Source: an uncultured SAR92 cluster bacterium (GTDB lineage Bacteria; Pseudomonadota; Gammaproteobacteria; Pseudomonadales; Porticoccaceae). Taken from it: 64,000 bases of DNA. The position numbers and the translations under genes are program-made. Under the pieces are notes generated by a model, which saw only the letters and a program-made list of their open reading frames with translations, was not told the origin of the DNA and made no database searches. Numbering within the stretch: the first letter of the stretch is position 1; each line of letters opens with the position of its first letter. Positions 48,922-58,402 of this stretch are shown piece by piece. The stretch is taken from the NCBI GenBank assembly GCA_902527245.1, contig CABZOI010000004.1, positions 1-64,000 of the forward strand, written 5' to 3'.

Positions 48922-50409
48922 CTAGTCTTGAATATTTTTAAATTCAGGACTTTTTAACCAGTGGGGTGGCGTCCTTTGCACGACCTCACGTAATGATTCC
49001 AAACTTCTCTTGAAGGCGCCTCTGTCACCGGTATCTTCGATCCAACCATCCAGAGCGTTACGCATAACTAGCAACTCATTGCGGTGGTCTCCATCTAAAG
49101 CTAGATTTATGGTCTCATTTGGATCATTTTGAAGGTCATATAACTCCTCTGGAGCTCTATCGCCAAATGGAGCTGCCTGAATTTTATTTAATAATCCGCT
49201 CTCATACATAGATCTTATCTTTGCAAAATAACCATATTTTGAGTCAGGGTAATCAATTGCCATCATTTCCCTATGACCATAATTAAAGAGTGGGCGATCT
49301 AACTTATAATTTCTGATGTAATGATAACGGTCACCCATCACTGATCTGACCCGGTCGATAACATTAGCACTTCGATCTAAAGCAGAGAAAACGAATTGTC
49401 TTTTGTAGTTTTCATCAAATACATTTTTTGTATCCATCGAGTTTGGAATGTTTTGATTAGTCAGCGCAAGGGACGTTCCGGTCACATCAATTAAACTCAC
49501 AAGATCTTCACGTATTGTTCCTGATTTAACCGATTTCGTATTGCCTGGCACTGAAATTATGAGTGGTACATGCAATCCTTCGCTGTAGCAAAATTCTTTG
49601 CTTCTGGGAAGATCAGAACCATGATCTGAAAACAAAAATATGATTGTCTTATCTCTTAAATTTTCTTTTTCCAGCCGATCAATTACCTTACCAACCTCAA
49701 TATCAGTTTGCATTAAACTATTCATATGCATCGAAATGTTATAGCGCATCTCAGGAATATCAGGATATTGAGGAGGGACGGTTACCTCAGATGGCTTTAC
49801 TGCAGGATAACCTGACTTGACTAAAAACTCCGACAACTGATCTCCTATATCTTTGCCTCCAGAGACCTTAATTTGCCCAAAAAAAGGTTTGTTGGATTTT
49901 ATATCTGACCAATCACCGGTTCCTTGTCCACCTTTGCCATATTTCGAATACTCATTTTCAACGTCAGTATCCATAATCGAGTACAGATCAGATTTTTTAT
50001 AGAAAAAATTATAATCATCTTTACCACTATTATATGTTTCATAACCAGCTTCCCTGAAGAGTTCCGGTACAGTCTTAAAATTTTCCGGTAAAAAGATTTG
50101 ATTGTCTGGCGTGCGGCTAGACCGGTGATCATGTGTCCCTAATCTTATCGCATGGGAACCTGTTATGATCGCTGATCGGCTTGGACTGCAAACAGGTGAT
50201 TCAGAATAAGCTCTTTTAAATAACACACCCTCTGAAGCAAGCTTGTCTATATTTGGCGTGGAAACTAATTTATTGCCATAGACCGAATGCCAAGGAGATT
50301 GATCATCGATAATAATCCATAGCACGTTGAATTTCTTACTACTTGCATCATTCGAACAGCTGGTTAGCAGCGTCGTCAGCAAAACAAAAAAAATAAACCG
50401 GCACTTCAT
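48922..50409 (-). CDS. Sulfatase, lipoprotein
   Basis: Second type I sulfatase, of a subtype distinct from the one at 45323. With the ATG at 50409 the product opens MKCRFIFFVLLTTLLTSC, a lipoprotein signal with lipobox Cys18; a longer frame reaches into the aldolase gene and spoils this signal, so I reject it. Metal-binding Asp35-Asp36 (VLWIIIDDQSPWHS) and the formylglycine signature CSPSR (Cys74) followed by SAIITGSHAIRLGTH are present, as is IFLFSDHGSDLP. Length is 495 residues. It is the last gene of the minus-strand arm of the accessory cluster, 13 bp after the aldolase, which suggests that a sulfated compound feeds the pathway. Confidence 0.92.
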   Translation of the reverse strand: MKCRFIFFVLLTTLLTSCSNDASSKKFNVLWIIIDDQSPWHSVYGNKLVSTPNIDKLASEGVLFKRAYSESPVCSPSRSAIITGSHAIRLGTHDHRSSRTPDNQIFLPENFKTVPELFREAGYETYNSGKDDYNFFYKKSDLYSIMDTDVENEYSKYGKGGQGTGDWSDIKSNKPFFGQIKVSGGKDIGDQLSEFLVKSGYPAVKPSEVTVPPQYPDIPEMRYNISMHMNSLMQTDIEVGKVIDRLEKENLRDKTIIFLFSDHGSDLPRSKEFCYSEGLHVPLIISVPGNTKSVKSGTIREDLVSLIDVTGTSLALTNQNIPNSMDTKNVFDENYKRQFVFSALDRSANVIDRVRSVMGDRYHYIRNYKLDRPLFNYGHREMMAIDYPDSKYGYFAKIRSMYESGLLNKIQAAPFGDRAPEELYDLQNDPNETINLALDGDHRNELLVMRNALDGWIEDTGDRGAFKRSLESLREVVQRTPPHWLKSPEFKNIQD

Positions 50410-50422
50410 TGAGTAACCATCC

Positions 50423-51070
50423 CTATATAAAGGAACTATATGCAACCTTTTTTGCTCGACCAAAAAATTCATCCCACTGCTCATCGGTCAAATAATCGGG
50501 CTCTCCCAAAGTTCGCGATAACACATAGTGTTTGCAAATGATTTCAAGTCGCTCAGCATGATCAATTGCAACTTTAAAATTTGCACCTCTACAAATCATT
50601 CCGTGATTCCCTAAAAGACACGCCGCTTGATCGGTCAATGCAGCAGCGGCATTGTCACCTAACTCTTGCGTTCCAAATGTAGCATAAGGTACACAAGGAA
50701 CATGGGTGTTACCAAATAAACCAACCATGTAATGAAATCCTGGGAGAGGTAGATTATGACAAGCAAGCGCTACGCAATAATCTGAATGAGTATGAACAAC
50801 AGCGTTGGCAGATTCCTGTTTTTTATATATTGATAGGTGCATTCGCCACTCTGAGGAAGGTTTAATGTCGCCACAAAACTCACCGTCTCCATTGACGTAA
50901 ACAACGCGATCTGATGAGATATTATCAGAATCAGCTCCAGAGCAGGAGATAAGCATTCCATCGCCAAAACGACAGCTTACATTCCCACTGGCTTGTCTCA
51001 TAAGACCTCGTCTATCAACAGTTAGATAAGCATCAACTAAATCTTTCCTTAATTTATCTTCACCTTCCAT
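50423..51070 (-). CDS. Class II aldolase, L-fuculose-1-phosphate aldolase-like
   Basis: Zinc-dependent aldolase or decarboxylase of the AraD/FucA family. Alignment from memory with E. coli FucA is close: RRGLMRQASGNVS, KPSSEWRMHLSIY (catalytic Glu74), VVHTHSDYC (His93 and His95 zinc ligands), PCVPYATFGTQEL and LLGNHGM (third zinc His near 155). Length is 215 residues, the same as FucA. The retained glutamate supports aldolase rather than epimerase chemistry, but the exact substrate cannot be read from the sequence: no fucose kinase or isomerase gene is in the window. It follows the PhyH gene by 11 bp and precedes the sulfatase. Confidence 0.9.
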   Translation of the reverse strand: MEGEDKLRKDLVDAYLTVDRRGLMRQASGNVSCRFGDGMLISCSGADSDNISSDRVVYVNGDGEFCGDIKPSSEWRMHLSIYKKQESANAVVHTHSDYCVALACHNLPLPGFHYMVGLFGNTHVPCVPYATFGTQELGDNAAAALTDQAACLLGNHGMICRGANFKVAIDHAERLEIICKHYVLSRTLGEPDYLTDEQWDEFFGRAKKVAYSSFI

Positions 51071-51081
51071 AACTTCCCCTT

Positions 51082-51717
51082 TTAAATTTTTTTACTGAAA
51101 TAAAAATATGAAACAGCCCTTCTTGGAAACTCGCTGAGATTGCCCTCAGACCAGTGCACAATCCGCGCATCATGAATGACCGCATCGCCGGGTTCTAATT
51201 CTGCAAATACCGCTTCGCTCGAGTTTTTATCCACCCCAGGTATTGGAATCTTATCTTGATATATTTTTTTGTGCGAACCTCTTAGGTAGGATAAACACCC
51301 ATTTGCTCGCGTAGCTCTGTCGATCGAGAGCCAAATTGTCGCTCCTAATTTTTCTCGTTTATCTGGACCAAAAAGATCTGTGTGCGGCTCAATACCGACC
51401 TGATCTCCTATCGGTCGATCAAACCATGCAACAGATGCACCAACCGGGTCACATCCCATTAGGTGGCCAATAACTGGTATATGAGGGCCTTCATCGAGCT
51501 GATCCTTAAACCAAGAATCATATCGATTCAAAGATTTCAAAACATGATGATATTTATCTTTAAAATCAACATCCTTCATCAAACGACTTGCTACTTCTGA
51601 TGCTTTCTCTTTCAATGTAGTAAGCTGATCATGACTTAAATAATTTTTTAAAATTACAAAGCCATCCTCATCATATCTTTTTTTTATTTCATTTAAACTT
51701 TGTTTGTCCATCTCCAT
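51082..51717 (-). CDS. Phytanoyl-CoA dioxygenase (PhyH) family protein
   Basis: Predicted Fe(II)/2-oxoglutarate-dependent oxygenase. The metal triad is complete: His112 and Asp114 in IEPHTDLFG and His188 in ARIVHWSEGN, with Arg199/Arg200 as the 2-oxoglutarate-binding arginine. The N-terminal YDEDGFVILKNYLS is also typical of PhyH. Length is 211 residues. It lies between the transposase-like protein and the aldolase, in the same direction with short gaps (38 and 11 bp). In this setting it could hydroxylate a small carbon substrate, perhaps removing a substituent, but the substrate is unknown. Confidence 0.9.
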   Translation of the reverse strand: MEMDKQSLNEIKKRYDEDGFVILKNYLSHDQLTTLKEKASEVASRLMKDVDFKDKYHHVLKSLNRYDSWFKDQLDEGPHIPVIGHLMGCDPVGASVAWFDRPIGDQVGIEPHTDLFGPDKREKLGATIWLSIDRATRANGCLSYLRGSHKKIYQDKIPIPGVDKNSSEAVFAELEPGDAVIHDARIVHWSEGNLSEFPRRAVSYFYFSKKI

Positions 51718-51755: not shown

Positions 51756-52973
51756 TTAAGTTTTATCAATCCCATCGGGTCTGTAATAAGTTCTCTCAAG
51801 ATTTCCCTCATGTGGGGTTGTGGAGAATAACGATATCTCTTTAAGCGAGTTAATGCCAACCAACATTTCATAGAACATTACCGTTTGCACTAACATTACG
51901 AGCAAATTTAATCGAGAAAACTTGAGTACTCTAAAGCCAGATAAATCGAACTCATTTTTGTAATGGCGATGTGTTAACACCACATCGTTTTTTGACATAA
52001 GTGACTCTACTAATCCCATGAGGTTTTTTCTTGATTTCAAATTGTTAACAGTGGTTAAAACTGGAATTGATAATTCTCCAACGAATCTATTTTTCGTCTT
52101 TAGCGTTATAAGTTGCAACTTTCTCCCAGTTTCTTTCAAATTAACCTTGAAGGCTCCAGCATGAACAAAAAGATCCATATCTACACTATAAAGATTGCTT
52201 TCACTCGGAGGATTACTTTGAATTCTTGGAATAAGCTTATACATCATTTTGCCAAATCTTGTATCTAATTTTTCTGCTAAATCTGATGCAGAATATTGAT
52301 GACCTTCGTATTCAATTTTAGAATTAACGTTGTTTGCCAGTGATATAAAATCAAAATCAGACTCCAAAATTATTTGGGTTGTTACTTCCGGTGAAAGACT
52401 TAAATCATCGAGATAACAAATGCCTTTATTATTGGTATGTTTAAGAACGACTTTAATCGTTTTTAATACTTCCTTCGCATCATCCTCATAGTCAGGGACT
52501 TGATCTGACCAGACTCTCGTGAAAATAGGGTAATAAACATCAGATTGATAGTCACTTGCTAAAATCTCACAAACTTTAAATCCCAAGCATTGATGCTCCT
52601 CCTCACTACCAGATAGATATTGAATTTTCGAAGCGTATTTTTTATTGAGTTCATGCATAGTCACAATAAGTCGTGTATCAGACTTGACATGGGAAGCACC
52701 TCGGGAAAGGACCGCGCTTGAAAATGCAGAAAGAATTTCTTCATCGTCAAGGTTCCTTGATAATCTTTTATGAGTTGCATGCAAACGAATGCTCTCACTG
52801 AGACCGCGTGCAATTGTAGTTAAATTAACTGATCGAGTTTTTTGAATGCCATCAAGCATATCAGCCAAGAACTTATATCCTACTTTCCCAACTGAACCAT
52901 CCATATAATCCTTATGAATACAATCGAAGAAATCTCTAATGGTTTCTGGATTTGGATCGCTTTGGTTCTCCAT
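51756..52973 (-). CDS. DDE-transposase-like protein with degenerate active site (IS4-type), intact frame
   Basis: I recognise the layout of an IS4-group DDE transposase. With the ATG at 52973 (405 residues), a helical N-terminal part (about 27-76) has FLADMLDGIQKTRSVNLTTIA and KRLSRNL; the RNase-H-like core has LNKKYASKIQYLSGS (about 109-123), a GFKV...YYPIFTRVWS strand set (about 130-156), GICYLDDLSL (about 184-193) and a C-terminal NEFDLSGFRVLKFSRL (about 340-355). The usual first catalytic Asp position, in the LxxDxTD motif before KYA, appears to be Thr105 and the DRGxD motif reads Asp189-Asp-Leu. The last glutamate, normally in an RWxIEE segment, seems replaced by valine. No terminal inverted repeats were seen nearby. 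It abuts the 207-residue protein, so a domesticated role is possible. A TTG two codons upstream is an alternative start. Confidence 0.65.
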   Translation of the reverse strand: MENQSDPNPETIRDFFDCIHKDYMDGSVGKVGYKFLADMLDGIQKTRSVNLTTIARGLSESIRLHATHKRLSRNLDDEEILSAFSSAVLSRGASHVKSDTRLIVTMHELNKKYASKIQYLSGSEEEHQCLGFKVCEILASDYQSDVYYPIFTRVWSDQVPDYEDDAKEVLKTIKVVLKHTNNKGICYLDDLSLSPEVTTQIILESDFDFISLANNVNSKIEYEGHQYSASDLAEKLDTRFGKMMYKLIPRIQSNPPSESNLYSVDMDLFVHAGAFKVNLKETGRKLQLITLKTKNRFVGELSIPVLTTVNNLKSRKNLMGLVESLMSKNDVVLTHRHYKNEFDLSGFRVLKFSRLNLLVMLVQTVMFYEMLVGINSLKEISLFSTTPHEGNLERTYYRPDGIDKT

Positions 52974-52979
52974 ACTCAA

Positions 52980-53603
52980 TTAGATATCACAAAGTTTGAT
53001 AAATTTTGACTTTTGCTCTTCTGACATTTTCTTAAAATCAGGCACTCCCATCTCTGTAACGGGCATTCCTGCGAATTCTGGTGAAACCATTTGAGACTTT
53101 GCAGCAATATTGTGCAACCCTGCTCCCTCCTCAACTCCATGGCTCAAAGCATCAATTATCGGCTGTGGCCAATAGGAGCTCGCGATACCTCCCAAATCGG
53201 GAGAATATCCAAGATAATTTTCCATATCTTGCTTAAGAATTTTTTCCTCCTCACTTCTCTGCTTTTGACCCTCGAATCCATATAGAGTCCGAGACTGATT
53301 ACATATATACCCCCATCTCATCTTTACATGAAATCCTGGCAGATCAGTGCAATCTGCAGTGATTTCAGTGCCCCCAGAAATTTTTCCTTTATTTACCATA
53401 AAAAAATAACCGGACTGTTGATAATCATCAGTAAGCAGTCGCTCAGGTGGTGATGAATAAATTTCACTGAAAGCCCAAACTAAATCAGGTGGAAAATCGG
53501 CAGATTCAAGTATTTTAACACCGAATTCAGCGCATGCTTTACTCCACTCTCTCGATCCAAATTCTCCTACCTCTTTAATCGTATTTATATCAATGTTTAA
53601 CAC
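52980..53603 (-). CDS. Unrecognised protein, 207 residues, first gene of the minus-strand arm
   Basis: A soluble protein without signal peptide or membrane segment; I cannot assign a family. Visible features: an N-terminal helical part with REWSKACAEFGVKILE, a strand-like block YFFMVNKGKISGGTEITADC, then LPGFHVKMRWGYICNQSRTLYG (about 88-110), a charged helix (EGQKQRSEEEKILKQDMENYL) and a C-terminal VPDFKKMSEEQKSKFIKLCDI. Three cysteines and several tryptophans occur but no known metal or nucleotide motif. It is divergent from the ADP-ribosylglycohydrolase gene over 224 bp and is followed after 6 bp by the transposase-like gene, so the two are likely cotranscribed and may act together. Confidence 0.8.
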   Translation of the reverse strand: MLNIDINTIKEVGEFGSREWSKACAEFGVKILESADFPPDLVWAFSEIYSSPPERLLTDDYQQSGYFFMVNKGKISGGTEITADCTDLPGFHVKMRWGYICNQSRTLYGFEGQKQRSEEEKILKQDMENYLGYSPDLGGIASSYWPQPIIDALSHGVEEGAGLHNIAAKSQMVSPEFAGMPVTEMGVPDFKKMSEEQKSKFIKLCDI

Positions 53604-53690: not shown

Positions 53691-53802
53691 ATTAATTCAC
53701 CCATATTTATCCTATTAAATCACTTGAAATAGCACACTCTCGCGAGCCATACTTCTAGAAATAGACTTTTGGGTGAACTAATTGAAAAATAGGTTGAACT
53801 AA
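53691..53802. promoter_or_regulatory. Three copies of a GGTGAACTAA-like motif in the divergent intergenic region
   Basis: GGGTGAACTAAT at 53771-53782 and GGTTGAACTAAAT at 53792-53804 are direct repeats about 20 bp apart, that is two helical turns. A third copy lies inverted at 53691-53702 (ATTAATTCACCC), differing from the exact reverse complement of the first at one base. The spacing and orientation suggest binding of a multimeric regulator controlling both arms of the cluster. No regulator gene is encoded in the cluster. Confidence 0.5.
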
Positions 53803-53851
53803 ATATCAGACGTTTTAATCTTTAATAGTGGAAATTAACAAAGTGGTTATT

Positions 53852-55477
53852 ATGGCAAAAGTCTCGTCTCTCGAAAGAAAACTTATAAAATCCGAACTCA
53901 AACAACGTTCTGAAGAAGGTTGCGATACCCATGAAATATCGGAGCGAGTGACCACTGCACTTCTGAGGAGAGACAACAATGAGGAGCTTCATGAACTCTA
54001 TGAAGAATTAATGGCATTGCCAATCGATGAAGGTTTCCCTTATGTCGAGCCATCCACTCTTGAGGAGATAAAAGCAGAGAGACCTGACGGGAAAAGAGAT
54101 CTTGAATTGAAATGGGACAAAGATCGAATCTACGAGCAAATACTTGGTGCATGGCTGGGTAGAGCCGCTGGATGTCTCCTTGGGAAACCGGTAGAGGGTT
54201 GGCCGAAGGCACGAATCGATAAATATCTCAAAGATAAGAAAATTGAAATTCTTGATGACTATCTTCCCTTCGATGAAAAAATTCTTCCGGGAGTACATAA
54301 AGTATCCACGAAGGGAAATATAAAGTTCATGCCTCGGGATGATGATATGGATTATGTGATTATCGGCCTTTTGGCACTCGAGAATAGAGGAATAAAAACT
54401 TCACCTAGAACAATTGCACACACATGGGTCGATAGACTTCCCTTTAATCTTGTGTATACCGCAGAGGAATGCGCATACCGAAATTTTACGAACTCAATTT
54501 GGCCACCCATGTCCGCGACTTATCGAAATCCATTTAGGGAGTGGATTGGAGCACAAATAAGGGCAGATATCTTTGGATATGTTACTCCTGGCTTACCAGA
54601 AATAGGCGCAAAGCTTGCATTCAATGACGCATCCATCTCACATGATAAAAATGGTATTTATGGAGAGATGTTTGTTGCGGCGATGCTTTCAGCTGCTTTT
54701 AAGCTTGAAAGCGTGAAAGATATTATCAATGCTGGCCTCTCTGAAATACCCAAAAACTGCAGGCTATCCGAAGCGGTAAGGGATACTATGCATTGGTGCG
54801 AAACCTTACCAAGCTGGGAGCTTGTATGGGAAAAAATAAATGAGAGTGTTGGCCATTACCACGGTGTGCACACCATAAACAATGCAGCGCTGATCGTGAT
54901 GGGTTTATATTTTGGCGAAAACGATTTTGAGAAAGGTATTGTATGCACTGTTCGAGGAGGTTGGGATACAGACTGCACAGGCGCGACGGTTGGCTCTATT
55001 CTTGGATTACGTCTTGGAGCAAAAAATCTTCCCTCAAAGTGGATTTCACCCCTCAATGATCGTCTCAAGTCAGTAGTCCGTGATGAGAATGATAATAAGA
55101 TTTCTGATTTAGCTAAAAGAACATTAGCTGTCGCGGAGACAATTATGGAGCAAAAAGATCATCAAGCGTCGGGTCTCAAGGAGAAAAATACTACTTCAGT
55201 CAATGCCTCGTTCGGAACTTGGGAGCTCGAGACAGGCTGGGGACATCAAATCTTGTGTTTTGAAAAAGGCGAGATTGATTTTTTGAATGATGGATATGAT
55301 CCTTATCCGATAGTGTCGAGTTCATATAATAATCCCGAATTAAAGTTTTCATTTAGTATCGATAAGGGTGGCTGGGATTTTGAAATTGATTTCGAGGGCA
55401 CGATTGACGGGGATGAGCTAGAGGGCGTTTTTCATATGATGGACACACCCGTAAAAGGACACAAAATTTCTAAATAA
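53852..55477 (+). CDS. ADP-ribosylglycohydrolase-family protein with extra C-terminal domain
   Basis: The central part carries the ADP-ribosylglycohydrolase fold: GAWLGRAAGCLLGKPVE (about 99-115), metal-binding PRDDDMDY (about 162-168) and GGWDTDCTGA (about 369-378), so both Asp clusters that hold the two magnesium ions are intact. A charged N-terminal helix region (about 1-90) and a C-terminal beta-rich region (about 440-541, with GTWELETGWG and FEGTIDGDELEGVF) flank it; the latter looks like a small antiparallel-sheet domain. Family members can remove ADP-ribose or act on other N- or O-glycosides. Start is taken as the ATG at 53852; a GTG eight codons earlier is possible. First gene of the plus-strand arm, 11 bp before the dehydratase. 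Confidence 0.85.
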   Translation: MAKVSSLERKLIKSELKQRSEEGCDTHEISERVTTALLRRDNNEELHELYEELMALPIDEGFPYVEPSTLEEIKAERPDGKRDLELKWDKDRIYEQILGAWLGRAAGCLLGKPVEGWPKARIDKYLKDKKIEILDDYLPFDEKILPGVHKVSTKGNIKFMPRDDDMDYVIIGLLALENRGIKTSPRTIAHTWVDRLPFNLVYTAEECAYRNFTNSIWPPMSATYRNPFREWIGAQIRADIFGYVTPGLPEIGAKLAFNDASISHDKNGIYGEMFVAAMLSAAFKLESVKDIINAGLSEIPKNCRLSEAVRDTMHWCETLPSWELVWEKINESVGHYHGVHTINNAALIVMGLYFGENDFEKGIVCTVRGGWDTDCTGATVGSILGLRLGAKNLPSKWISPLNDRLKSVVRDENDNKISDLAKRTLAVAETIMEQKDHQASGLKEKNTTSVNASFGTWELETGWGHQILCFEKGEIDFLNDGYDPYPIVSSSYNNPELKFSFSIDKGGWDFEIDFEGTIDGDELEGVFHMMDTPVKGHKISK

Positions 55478-55488
55478 AGAGCTATGAT

Positions 55489-56598
55489 ATGAAAATTATA
55501 GATGTCAAAGTAACAGTATGGAAATGGGATAACATCCCTCCCACTCAATACACAAAGGACTTTAAGAGCCTTGATTCAAGAAGCACAAATATGGCTCTTG
55601 TTAAAATTCTGACCGATGAAAATATTACAGGTTATGCTTTTATGGGTCACTCTATGGCAACTCAGAGCTACAATGCACAACTTATAATAGAAAAATACAA
55701 ACCAGGATTAGTTGGTAAAGATCCACTTGATAGAGAGCGTATTTGGCAGAATCTGTCCAAATGGGCCATGGGCGGCACCATGCTGCAAATCGCTGCAATA
55801 GACATCGCTCTATGGGATATCGCGGGCAAAGCAGCTAATCTGCCCATTCATAAATTAATGGGCTCCTATCGAAATCAAGTACCTGCTTATGCAAGCTCAG
55901 CAATCTTGGCATCAAAAGAAGAATATATCGACGAAGCTCTATCCTTGAAAGAGAGAGGCTGGACAGCTTACAAAATCCATCCGCCAGCTGAGCCAAAATT
56001 AGATATCGAAATCTGCAAAGCTGTCAGAAAAGCAGTTGGTGATGATTATAGATTAATGTTCGATGCCTGTTGGGCATATAATTACAATGATGCAATTTAT
56101 GTTGGTCAAGCCGTTCAAGAAATGGGGTTTTATTGGTATGAAGACCCTCTTCCCTGCGATGATATTTATGGATATGTAAGGCTCAAAAAAACGCTCAGCG
56201 TTCCAATCGCAGCAACAGAACTACCCGCAACAGGCCCAAAAGCTTATGCACCATGGATAATGAATCAAGCCACTGATTATCTGAGAGGTGATGTTGCAAT
56301 TAAGGGTGGTATAACTTCGTGTTTGAAAACGGCGCACACTGCTGAGACATTTCATATGAATTATGAAGTTCATCATGGTGGAAATTCATTAAATAATGCA
56401 GCTAATTTACATCTAATTATGGCAATAAAAAATTGCGAGTATTTTGAAGTACTTCTTCCAGATGCTGCACAAAAACACGGTATCATCAACGATATTGAGG
56501 TCGACTCCAATGGGATGGTCCATGCTCCAGATGGTCCAGGACTAGGCATGGAAATTGATTTCGATTTGATAAATAAAAATAAGGTTTATGAATTGTAA
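55489..56598 (+). CDS. Mandelate racemase/muconate lactonizing (enolase superfamily) enzyme, likely sugar-acid dehydratase
   Basis: Enolase-superfamily enzyme that would abstract the proton alpha to a carboxylate. The two-domain layout is complete: a capping domain (about 1-125) with MALVKILTDENITGYAF and a barrel with Lys162-Ile-His164 (AYKIHPP) on strand 2, metal ligands Asp192 (MFDACWAY), Glu218 (WYEDPLP) and Glu244 (AATELP), Asp268 (RGDVAIKGG) and His295/296 (EVHHGG) as the general acid-base pair. The K-x-H form on strand 2 and the H-D dyad point to the mandelate racemase subgroup and sugar-acid dehydration. Length is 369 residues. Its stop shares an A with the SDR start (TAATG). Confidence 0.9.
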   Translation: MKIIDVKVTVWKWDNIPPTQYTKDFKSLDSRSTNMALVKILTDENITGYAFMGHSMATQSYNAQLIIEKYKPGLVGKDPLDRERIWQNLSKWAMGGTMLQIAAIDIALWDIAGKAANLPIHKLMGSYRNQVPAYASSAILASKEEYIDEALSLKERGWTAYKIHPPAEPKLDIEICKAVRKAVGDDYRLMFDACWAYNYNDAIYVGQAVQEMGFYWYEDPLPCDDIYGYVRLKKTLSVPIAATELPATGPKAYAPWIMNQATDYLRGDVAIKGGITSCLKTAHTAETFHMNYEVHHGGNSLNNAANLHLIMAIKNCEYFEVLLPDAAQKHGIINDIEVDSNGMVHAPDGPGLGMEIDFDLINKNKVYEL

Positions 56599-57392
56599 TG
56601 GAAACTTTCAACAATAAAACTGCATTTATTACAGGAGGCGCCAGTGGGATTGGTTTAGGAATTGCAAAAGCATTTTTGAATTCTGGGGCAAATGTTGCAA
56701 TAGGCGATATCAACAAAGAACAGCTTTCAATTGCGGAAAAAGAACTTAAAACAATAAGTGGGAATGTCATCTCGTTAACAATTGATACGACTGACTTGAG
56801 TACTCTCGAATCTGCATCCAAAACAATAAGTGATTCCTTTGGGAATTTACATTATTTATGCAACAACGCAGGAATACCTGGCGGTGCCAAAATTCTAGAA
56901 ACACCAGAAGAGAGATGGCGACTTGTCCACGAGGTCAATTTTATGGGGCCTCTCAATGGAATAAACCTTTTTTTACCTCAGATGCTTGAACATGGCGAAT
57001 CCAGTCATATTGTAAACACATCGTCTTTCAGTGGCATCCACGGGCATGGAAATCAATCTGCATATGGTTCAAGTAAATTTGCGCTCGTTGGCATGTCGGA
57101 GTTTTTGAGAAATGATTTAAAAGATTCAAACGTGTCTGTTTCGGTTTTATGTCCACATGTAGTAGACACACCAATAATTGGTGGTCTTAAGAAAAGAGTT
57201 TCAGAAAACGTTTTAAAAATGATCAAAGACATGGAGGTATCTCCAATAACCGTTGGCGAACAGGTTTTAAACGCAATTAGAACAAAAGAATTCTATATTT
57301 TTTGCGATGGAGTTCATACACGGCAGATGCTAGAGGCTAGATGCGAGTCACTGCTTGAAGCCATGGATCGACAATTTCCCAGGAGAGACTAA
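56598..57392 (+). CDS. Short-chain dehydrogenase/reductase (classical SDR)
   Basis: NAD(P)-dependent oxidoreductase. The cofactor motif TGGASGIG is at residues 12-19, an acidic Asp37 after strand 2 (AIGDINKEQ) suggests NAD preference, NNAG is at 89-92 and the catalytic set is Ser142/Ser143, Tyr156 and Lys160 (YGSSK). Length is 264 residues. It is translationally coupled to the dehydratase by a 1-bp overlap (TAATG) and is followed 2 bp later by the kelch gene. In the pathway it could oxidise a sugar to a lactone or a hydroxy-keto acid; the substrate cannot be read from the sequence. Confidence 0.92.
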   Translation: METFNNKTAFITGGASGIGLGIAKAFLNSGANVAIGDINKEQLSIAEKELKTISGNVISLTIDTTDLSTLESASKTISDSFGNLHYLCNNAGIPGGAKILETPEERWRLVHEVNFMGPLNGINLFLPQMLEHGESSHIVNTSSFSGIHGHGNQSAYGSSKFALVGMSEFLRNDLKDSNVSVSVLCPHVVDTPIIGGLKKRVSENVLKMIKDMEVSPITVGEQVLNAIRTKEFYIFCDGVHTRQMLEARCESLLEAMDRQFPRRD

Positions 57393-57394
57393 AG

Positions 57395-58402
57395 ATGACA
57401 AATAAACCAAAACACCAAGCTCAATGGAAGAGACTTGCTGATATGCCTGTACCAAAATGGGAGCCAGCAAGTATAGTTTTAGACAATAAAATGTATGTTC
57501 ATGGAGGGTACGAAAATGGAATTGTCTCGGGGAAAAATCTTCACGTTTTTGATCCTGAGGGAGCCACGCATGGAAGCTGGAAGAAATTACAAGATCTTCC
57601 AAGTAGCATTAGCCATGTAAACCTTGCACCAGGTCTTACAGGATTTTGGTTTGCTGGTGGGATGAAGGATATGGACAGGCCCAATGGAATAAAAGATCAC
57701 ATCGTGTCCGAAGTTTGGCACTTTGACCCAGAACTTGATCGATACAGTGCAGGGCCCTTACTTCCGGGTAGAAGAGCGGGAGGTGGACTTGTTAGACTCG
57801 GAGATAACCTCCATTACATTTCAGGGTTGATGGAAGACAGAGATACCGATTCAGAAGATCATTGGGTTTTCAATCTCAAAGATTGGGATAGAGATCAATC
57901 CGCTCAATGGGAAAAATTAGCTCCCCTACCTAATCCAAGAAACCAACTTTCTGTAACCGTTTTAAACGACAAAATTTATATTATTGGTGGTCAATATAAC
58001 CATGACTTACAGCAATTAGATCAACCCTTAGTTCATATTTACGATGCATCCAAAGATACTTGGTGTGATGGTCCATCTTTGCCTTATGGTCATTCGCACT
58101 CTGAAGGTGCCACCTTCACTTATAAGGACAGAATTTGGATGGTGGGTGGCCACACAACGCCAGAAGGTGGTACCAAAGGAATGTGTGAAAACGTCATCAC
58201 ACTTACCGAGGGAGAGGAATGGGAGATTACTTTCAAGCTCCCTGTCGGAGTCTCTTCGCCTGCATCAAAAATAATCAATGATAAATTATATGTGGCAGGT
58301 GGCTGGGATCTTAGGATGCTTGCAAAAACTCCTGAAAGAGACTACTGGGCTGATAGGCAAGTAACTTGCGGAGATGTTTGGGTTACAGAAATACCATACT
58401 AG
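57395..58402 (+). CDS. Kelch-repeat beta-propeller protein
   Basis: A 335-residue propeller with repeated kelch units of the form VxGGxxN...xxVxxFD: MYVHGGYENG, GFWFAGGMKD, LHYISGLMED, IYIIGGQYNH, IWMVGGHTTP and LYVAGGWDLR, which makes six blades. No signal peptide is visible, so it should act in the cytoplasm, unlike NanM, the periplasmic sialic-acid mutarotase with the same fold. A ribosome binding site (GGAGAGAC) lies at the end of the SDR gene. Position in the operon suggests a sugar-lactone or mutarotase-type role by analogy; this is inference. It converges on the DUF3089 gene. Confidence 0.85.
   Translation: MTNKPKHQAQWKRLADMPVPKWEPASIVLDNKMYVHGGYENGIVSGKNLHVFDPEGATHGSWKKLQDLPSSISHVNLAPGLTGFWFAGGMKDMDRPNGIKDHIVSEVWHFDPELDRYSAGPLLPGRRAGGGLVRLGDNLHYISGLMEDRDTDSEDHWVFNLKDWDRDQSAQWEKLAPLPNPRNQLSVTVLNDKIYIIGGQYNHDLQQLDQPLVHIYDASKDTWCDGPSLPYGHSHSEGATFTYKDRIWMVGGHTTPEGGTKGMCENVITLTEGEEWEITFKLPVGVSSPASKIINDKLYVAGGWDLRMLAKTPERDYWADRQVTCGDVWVTEIPY

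Follow-up and report, generated by a model that had tools for sequence, protein, structure and literature searches.

The locus and its question

The locus examined here raises one question: what does an intact transposase-like gene do inside a metabolic operon once its catalytic residues are lost? The most likely answer is that a catalytically dead IS4-group transposase has kept its specificity for terminal inverted repeats (TIRs) and is reused as a local transcription regulator; the binding, the regulation, its sign and its inducer are all inferred. DDE transposases are among the most abundant genes. That transposases can be turned into transcription factors is well established in eukaryotes, and nuclease-dead TnpB (TldR) offers a described bacterial case. 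The open-access literature searched contained no account of a bacterial DDE transposase put to this use.

The window, that is, the whole 64,000-nucleotide stretch of DNA analysed, belongs to a contig of a 1.9-Mb genome that is 94% complete and has its nearest named relatives among SAR92/Porticoccaceae assemblies. Two divergent operons meet in it. The minus-strand run is ordered p207, transposase homologue, PhyH dioxygenase, class II aldolase and sulfatase. The first product of the plus-strand operon we take to be ADP-ribosylglycohydrolase-like, judging by its sequence and without a profile run.

48922..50484, minus strand: sulfatase (PF00884, 1e-37)
50423..51070, minus strand: class II aldolase (PF00596, 7.4e-47)
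51082..51717, minus strand: PhyH-family dioxygenase, downstream of the transposase homologue (PF05721, 2.1e-23)
51756..52973, minus strand: Tn5-like/IS4-group transposase homologue, catalytically dead, proposed DNA-binding regulator (405 aa, intact frame, Tn5 fold)
52980..53603, minus strand: p207, 207-aa partner gene of unresolved function, adjacent to the transposase homologue in nearly all window-clade loci
53852..55477, plus strand: ADP-ribosylglycohydrolase-like protein, first gene of the divergent operon (start ATG 53852 by homology)
55489..56598, plus strand: enolase-superfamily (MR/MLE) enzyme (PF13378, 2.9e-53; synteny)
56598..57392, plus strand: short-chain dehydrogenase-like protein (SDR), assigned from sequence with no profile run
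57395..58402, plus strand: Kelch-repeat (NanM-like) protein (Kelch 6.1e-21, NANM 1.8e-16)

Across genera, the p207/transposase pair mostly adjoins the same divergent operon (ADP-ribosylglycohydrolase-like, enolase, SDR, kelch). The genes downstream of the pair vary, being either PhyH/aldolase/sulfatase or an esterase with Fe-ADH and enoyl-CoA hydratases further on. The cluster resembles, and might serve, catabolism of a sulfated sugar or related compound; its inducer is unknown.

Fold and catalytic residues of the transposase homologue

The gene is a single uninterrupted minus-strand frame of 405 codons plus stop, and the 207-codon frame ends 6 bp upstream of it. The 405-aa protein has no significant match in Pfam, NCBIfam or PHROGs. 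Pfam DDE_Tnp_1 (PF01609) is not matched either; this profile matches only 3 of 33 family members, L061 and L063 included.

The best Foldseek match of the AlphaFold model (pLDDT 85.6, pTM 0.86) is Tn5 transposase (E 6e-13, probability 1.00). By VIA, the model aligns with Tn5 over 352 residues (Z 26.7, rmsd 4.2), the N-terminal DNA-binding domain included, with window residues 6-378 corresponding to Tn5 3-372. The RNase-H core is present, and piggyBac, ISCth4 and Hermes score below Tn5.

Alignment with active relatives spans the whole length of the protein and places T105 at the first catalytic aspartate (D1), keeps D189 and places V332 at the glutamate (E). The DRG of active relatives has become DDL, and the Y2R3E6K signature is lost, its positions reading L325, K328, V332 and K339. 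Conservation is uneven: residues 27-77, the N-terminal helices, are the best-conserved part of the protein and share 57% identity with L061, whereas the catalytic core shares ~27%. Descent from an IS4-group transposase with a Tn5 fold, followed by loss of catalytic residues, is shown computationally.

An initial annotation had described the intact 405-codon minus-strand frame 6 bp after the 207-residue gene, an IS4-group pattern, tentative residue assignments (T105, D189 with DRG changed to DDL, and a valine) and no obvious inverted repeats. All of these held. The valine is V332, the fold search leads to Tn5, and inverted repeats flanking the 51756-52973 gene were looked for and none was found.

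Family, active relatives and selection

A family-alignment scan of genome contigs recovered 43 loci, the majority in one marine Gammaproteobacteria clade and some only ~30% identical. All aligned window-clade homologues carry H or T at D1, never D, and V, I, L or A at E. Most of the clade retains D189 and D190, with N at position 190 in several members. Some 30 homologues, down to ~40% identity, have intact frames. Pairwise dN/dS within the clade is 0.08-0.17, similar to that of the adjacent enzymes, and the gene is single copy in its own genome. Purifying selection on the transposase homologue is shown by these computational comparisons.

The closest active relatives (L061, L063 and L066) occur in Deltaproteobacteria/Desulfobulbaceae assemblies and keep the first D (IVDPTDL), DRG and YxxRWxxEExxxxxK. 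In L061 the catalytic stretches read IVDPTDLQKKYA, VYDRGGD and YITRWRVEETIRFIK, and 18-nt TIRs lie on both sides of the gene. Such relatives, with intact DDE residues and TIRs, form a separate clade seen only in distant Desulfobulbaceae-type genomes. Searches of viral contigs, plasmids and phages with the window protein or L061 returned nothing relevant beyond distant Thermus/Deinococcus transposases.

In a rooted tree the window clade, L057 and the L059/60/62 group fall together and L064 lies outside. The outgroup is distant and the base, where L065/L068 and the active clade branch, is unresolved. Parsimony requires no more than a single loss of catalysis, and several losses are not excluded.

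L061, L063, L066, L123, L127 and L131 are uncharacterised IS4-group insertion sequences found in Desulfobulbaceae-type genomes. Their ends read AGGACATCCCCCATT...AATGGGTGAAGTCCT, and a further end-like site lies within the element, ~66-75 bp inwards of the left end.

Transposon-end-like sites in the intergenic region

When 19 loci are aligned across the stretch from p207 to the divergent gene, a conserved block, TTTTGGGTGAA, stands out. In the window it forms part of an outward-facing pair of sites next to a predicted promoter.

53696..53705, minus strand: TIR-like site 1 (TATGGGTGAA), reading towards p207, outward-facing pair with site 2
53767..53780, plus strand: TIR-like site 2 (TTTTGGGTGAACTA), reading towards the ADP-ribosylglycohydrolase-family operon, conserved TTTTGGGTGAA
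53794..53822, plus strand: predicted divergent promoter (-35 TTGAAC 53794-53799, 17 bp, -10 AATCTT 53817-53822), based on conservation only

Site 2 and the active IS ends have TGGGTGAA[CG]T in common. The same core forms the ends of the active elements: their right end reads AATGGGTGAAGTCCT, and the complement of their left end reads AATGGGGGATGTCCT. These elements also carry an internal AATGGGTGAACTT near the transposase gene start.

Upstream of p207/transposase genes, 23.8 kb of sequence contains 58 copies of the motif WWTGGGTGA, against 26 copies in 442 kb from other parts of these loci, a 41-fold enrichment. Of 31 loci, 30 have the motif upstream; the sequence of the remaining one, L049, starts within p207. 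The enrichment is descriptive, and its p-value should not be read as a genuine probability, since the loci are related and also served to define the motif. The independent comparisons are the active elements and the transposase-free genes. No site was found upstream of any of 12 p207 genes that lack a neighbouring transposase homologue, nor upstream of any of 12 transposase-free homologues of the divergent gene; a 13th such homologue has one variant. In L054, L056 and L069, where p207 is not next to the transposase gene, the sites still accompany that gene. A computational link between presence of the sites and presence of the transposase gene is shown; there are no binding data. In its long form, TTTTGGGTGAA-N11-18-TTGA, the motif has a single genomic occurrence, at the window locus, which suggests a local regulator.

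The genome also holds a second copy of the divergent gene, 58% identical (L160, G000:C7), with the variant AAAAAAGGGTGATT / AAAAAAGGGTGATTAATAATACGGGTCAA upstream. It could be a second target of the regulator, in trans.

Promoter geometry and paired sites

Towards the divergent operon, the window carries GGGTGA at 53771-53776, followed by the -35 and -10 elements listed above and the ATG at 53852. The arrangement TTTTGGGTGA-N17-TTGACC-N17-TA(G/C)TCT, or a close variant, recurs in 15 loci, and N18 is found in two more. A fixed site-to-promoter spacing at a conserved predicted promoter is shown computationally for these 17 loci. A generic promoter consensus scan did not report the divergent promoter. 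The -35 is overlapped by the second half, GTTGACC, to which a different regulator might bind.

The two window sites form an outward-facing pair whose cores are 66 bp apart. L061 shows this layout at its left end, also with 66 bp, and in four other active or partial elements an outward pair is 75 bp apart. In L035 and L038, where a sulfatase stands in front of p207, the outward pair lies upstream of the sulfatase, so the pair follows the promoter. The paired arrangement is incomplete in L032, L046, L050, L053, L055 and L058. Two other outward pairs exist in the same genome (L144, L145); going by open frames alone, they seem to be coding or for other reasons unlike promoters. The gap between the two sites ranges from 66 to 120 across loci, so they do not keep a strict helical phase.

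The partner gene p207

Both p207 and the transposase homologue are present in 10 of 97 relatives scanned, always together and adjacent, and every one of the 12 scanned genomes that have a degenerate transposase homologue also has p207. The pairing is asymmetric: p207 also occurs without the transposase gene and is the wider of the two. The set of genomes bearing p207 is almost the same as the set with the divergent gene family. Given this breadth and co-occurrence, p207 is likely a pathway member, to which the transposase homologue was added in some lineages.

The function of p207 remains unresolved. No significant family was found in Pfam, NCBIfam or PHROGs, and a profile search against solved structures gave no match. 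Its model is confident (pLDDT 93), with no Foldseek match below E 0.1; VIA returned many SCP2-like rows, all with Z under 5 (best Z 4.6). The predicted model offers at most a weak hint of a lipid- or ligand-binding, SCP2-like fold. A ligand sensor and a pathway enzyme are both conceivable.

The wider p207 family (52980-53603, L098-L112) is broader than this locus and uncharacterised, with six to seven copies in the genome G412 and in those of the L067/L068 type. Its members often lie near sulfatases, ABC exporters and TonB receptors, and co-occur with the divergent ADP-ribosylglycohydrolase-like gene.

The remaining claims of the initial annotation can now be judged. Domestication is supported by the dN/dS values, the neighbourhood conserved across genera and the single copy. 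The suggestion of regulation or DNA binding gains support from the TIR-like sites at the divergent promoter, direct binding still being inferred. The pairing with the 207-residue gene held in part: it is real and asymmetric. Relatives with intact DDE residues and inverted repeats, named in advance as a refutation, do exist, but in the separate Desulfobulbaceae-type clade. Membership of a large family and the operator-like sites upstream of the pair go beyond what had been claimed.

Proposed mechanism

In the proposed model, an ancestral IS4-group transposase would have lost cleavage and strand transfer while its N-terminal DNA-binding domain and Tn5-like fold were kept. In the promoter region that separates the two divergent operons, the protein would bind sequences that copy the ancestral transposon-end core (TTTTGGGTGAA); there are no binding data for this. 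Once bound, it would regulate one or both divergent promoters; expression data are likewise lacking. The divergent promoter is inferred to be activated, probably, because the site is fixed ~55 bp upstream of the predicted transcription start and the -10 element is weak. The strict distance from site to -35, kept despite divergence, suggests contact with RNA polymerase and hence activation. Repression might also occur, as the half-site overlapping the -35 allows it. A dimer may bridge the outward-facing pair in the manner of a transposon synapse; this too is inferred.

A bolder reading would see a bacterial family of DDE-transposase-derived transcription factors, a counterpart of TldR that works without guide RNA, which has kept both TIR recognition and the two-site left-end layout of the ancestral insertion sequence, with synapsis of the paired sites controlling divergent catabolic promoters together with p207. 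It is offered tentatively, as the balance leans against it.

Alternative explanations

The most serious alternative is a structural or partner role, e.g. as a scaffold for p207, with the TTTTGGGTGAA sites belonging to another regulator. The occurrence of p207 in all 12 scanned genomes with the degenerate homologue, the conserved cluster and the lack of data on site binding by the transposase homologue speak for it. It is nonetheless unlikely: the sites track the transposase gene without adjacent p207 (L054, L056, L069), they are absent where the gene is missing, and their core is that of the ends of active relatives. A decaying remnant that has persisted by chance, or a young copy akin to a pseudogene, would fit the lost catalytic residues and the absence of inverted repeats at the gene. 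This explanation is contradicted by the selection analysis and all but excluded, given ~30 intact homologue frames to ~40% identity, dN/dS of 0.08-0.17 and a conserved operon position.

Two further alternatives are both very unlikely. A transposition inhibitor like Tn5 Inh, poisoning active relatives through end binding or mixed dimers, would also be expected to combine end-binding specificity with absence of catalysis. Against it, the genome has no other homologue, active relatives were seen only in distant Desulfobulbaceae-type genomes, and the fixed placement at a metabolic operon and promoter is left unexplained. A still active nuclease or recombinase with a rearranged site (H/T105, D189, D190), acting on the outward pair, e.g. 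in promoter switching, could invoke the conservation of D189 and D190 in most of the clade, the conserved H in place of D1 and the transposon orientation of the paired ends. However, position 190 is N in several members, the E position is always hydrophobic, and a complete pair is missing in several loci. The preferred reading remains a local DNA-binding regulator, derived from a transposase that has long been fixed in its host.

Relation to known systems

The nearest known system is the IS4-family/Tn5 (IS50) transposase (PF01609, DDE_Tnp_1). The overall fold, N-terminal DNA-binding domain included, is alike, and sequence continuity runs through L061/L063. Unlike these transposases, the window protein lacks the DDE triad, Y2R3E6K and flanking inverted repeats, and it is single copy at a fixed operon position. 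Signs of mobility (multiple copies, variable positions) are not met, the gene being single copy in its genome with conserved synteny.

Tn5 Inh and IS-encoded self-repressing transposases are likewise transposase-derived and act by binding element ends, in a non-catalytic or self-limiting way. In Inh the N-terminal DNA-binding segment is missing and transposition is what it acts on, whereas the window protein keeps this segment and sits in a metabolic operon. TldR proteins are nuclease-dead TnpB homologues that work as RNA-guided transcription factors (PMC13418256, citing Wiegand et al. 2024, Nature 631:439). They resemble the window protein as transposon proteins linked to host genes, with catalysis lost and DNA binding kept, the last being inferred for the window protein. 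They differ in being of TnpB type rather than of Tn5-type DDE fold; for the window protein no guide RNA is proposed, and its sites are TIR-derived. SfsB/Ner and Xre-type antitoxins are host regulators taken from mobile elements and control carbon metabolism (PMC8987985). Their DNA-binding origin in mobile elements is similar, but what was recruited there is a small HTH protein of phage or antitoxin origin; neither DDE nor IS4 appears as a word in that review.

The ancestral element, its dead descendants and the derived promoter sites are all preserved, so the steps from transposon end to operator are directly testable.

Other degenerate and intermediate homologues

Degenerate homologues also occur outside the window clade. 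A second group (L059:7956-9080, L062:7965-9098 and L106) has Q, R and E at the catalytic positions and a conserved neighbourhood with a CaiB-type gene. No matching TIR-like site was found for the L059/60/62 group. A third group (L065:1856-3118, L067 and L068:1011-2270) also has a conserved setting of its own, beside acyl-CoA dehydrogenase, enoyl-CoA hydratase and RraA-like genes; upstream of L067 and L068 stands TTTTTGGGGGAACTC, resembling the left TIR of active elements. L064:3022-4254 is an intermediate homologue that keeps the first D and has lost the other catalytic residues; two IS-like sites (AAAAATGGGTGAACT, AAAACTGGGTGAAGTC) lie upstream of it, and a p207 gene is nearby.
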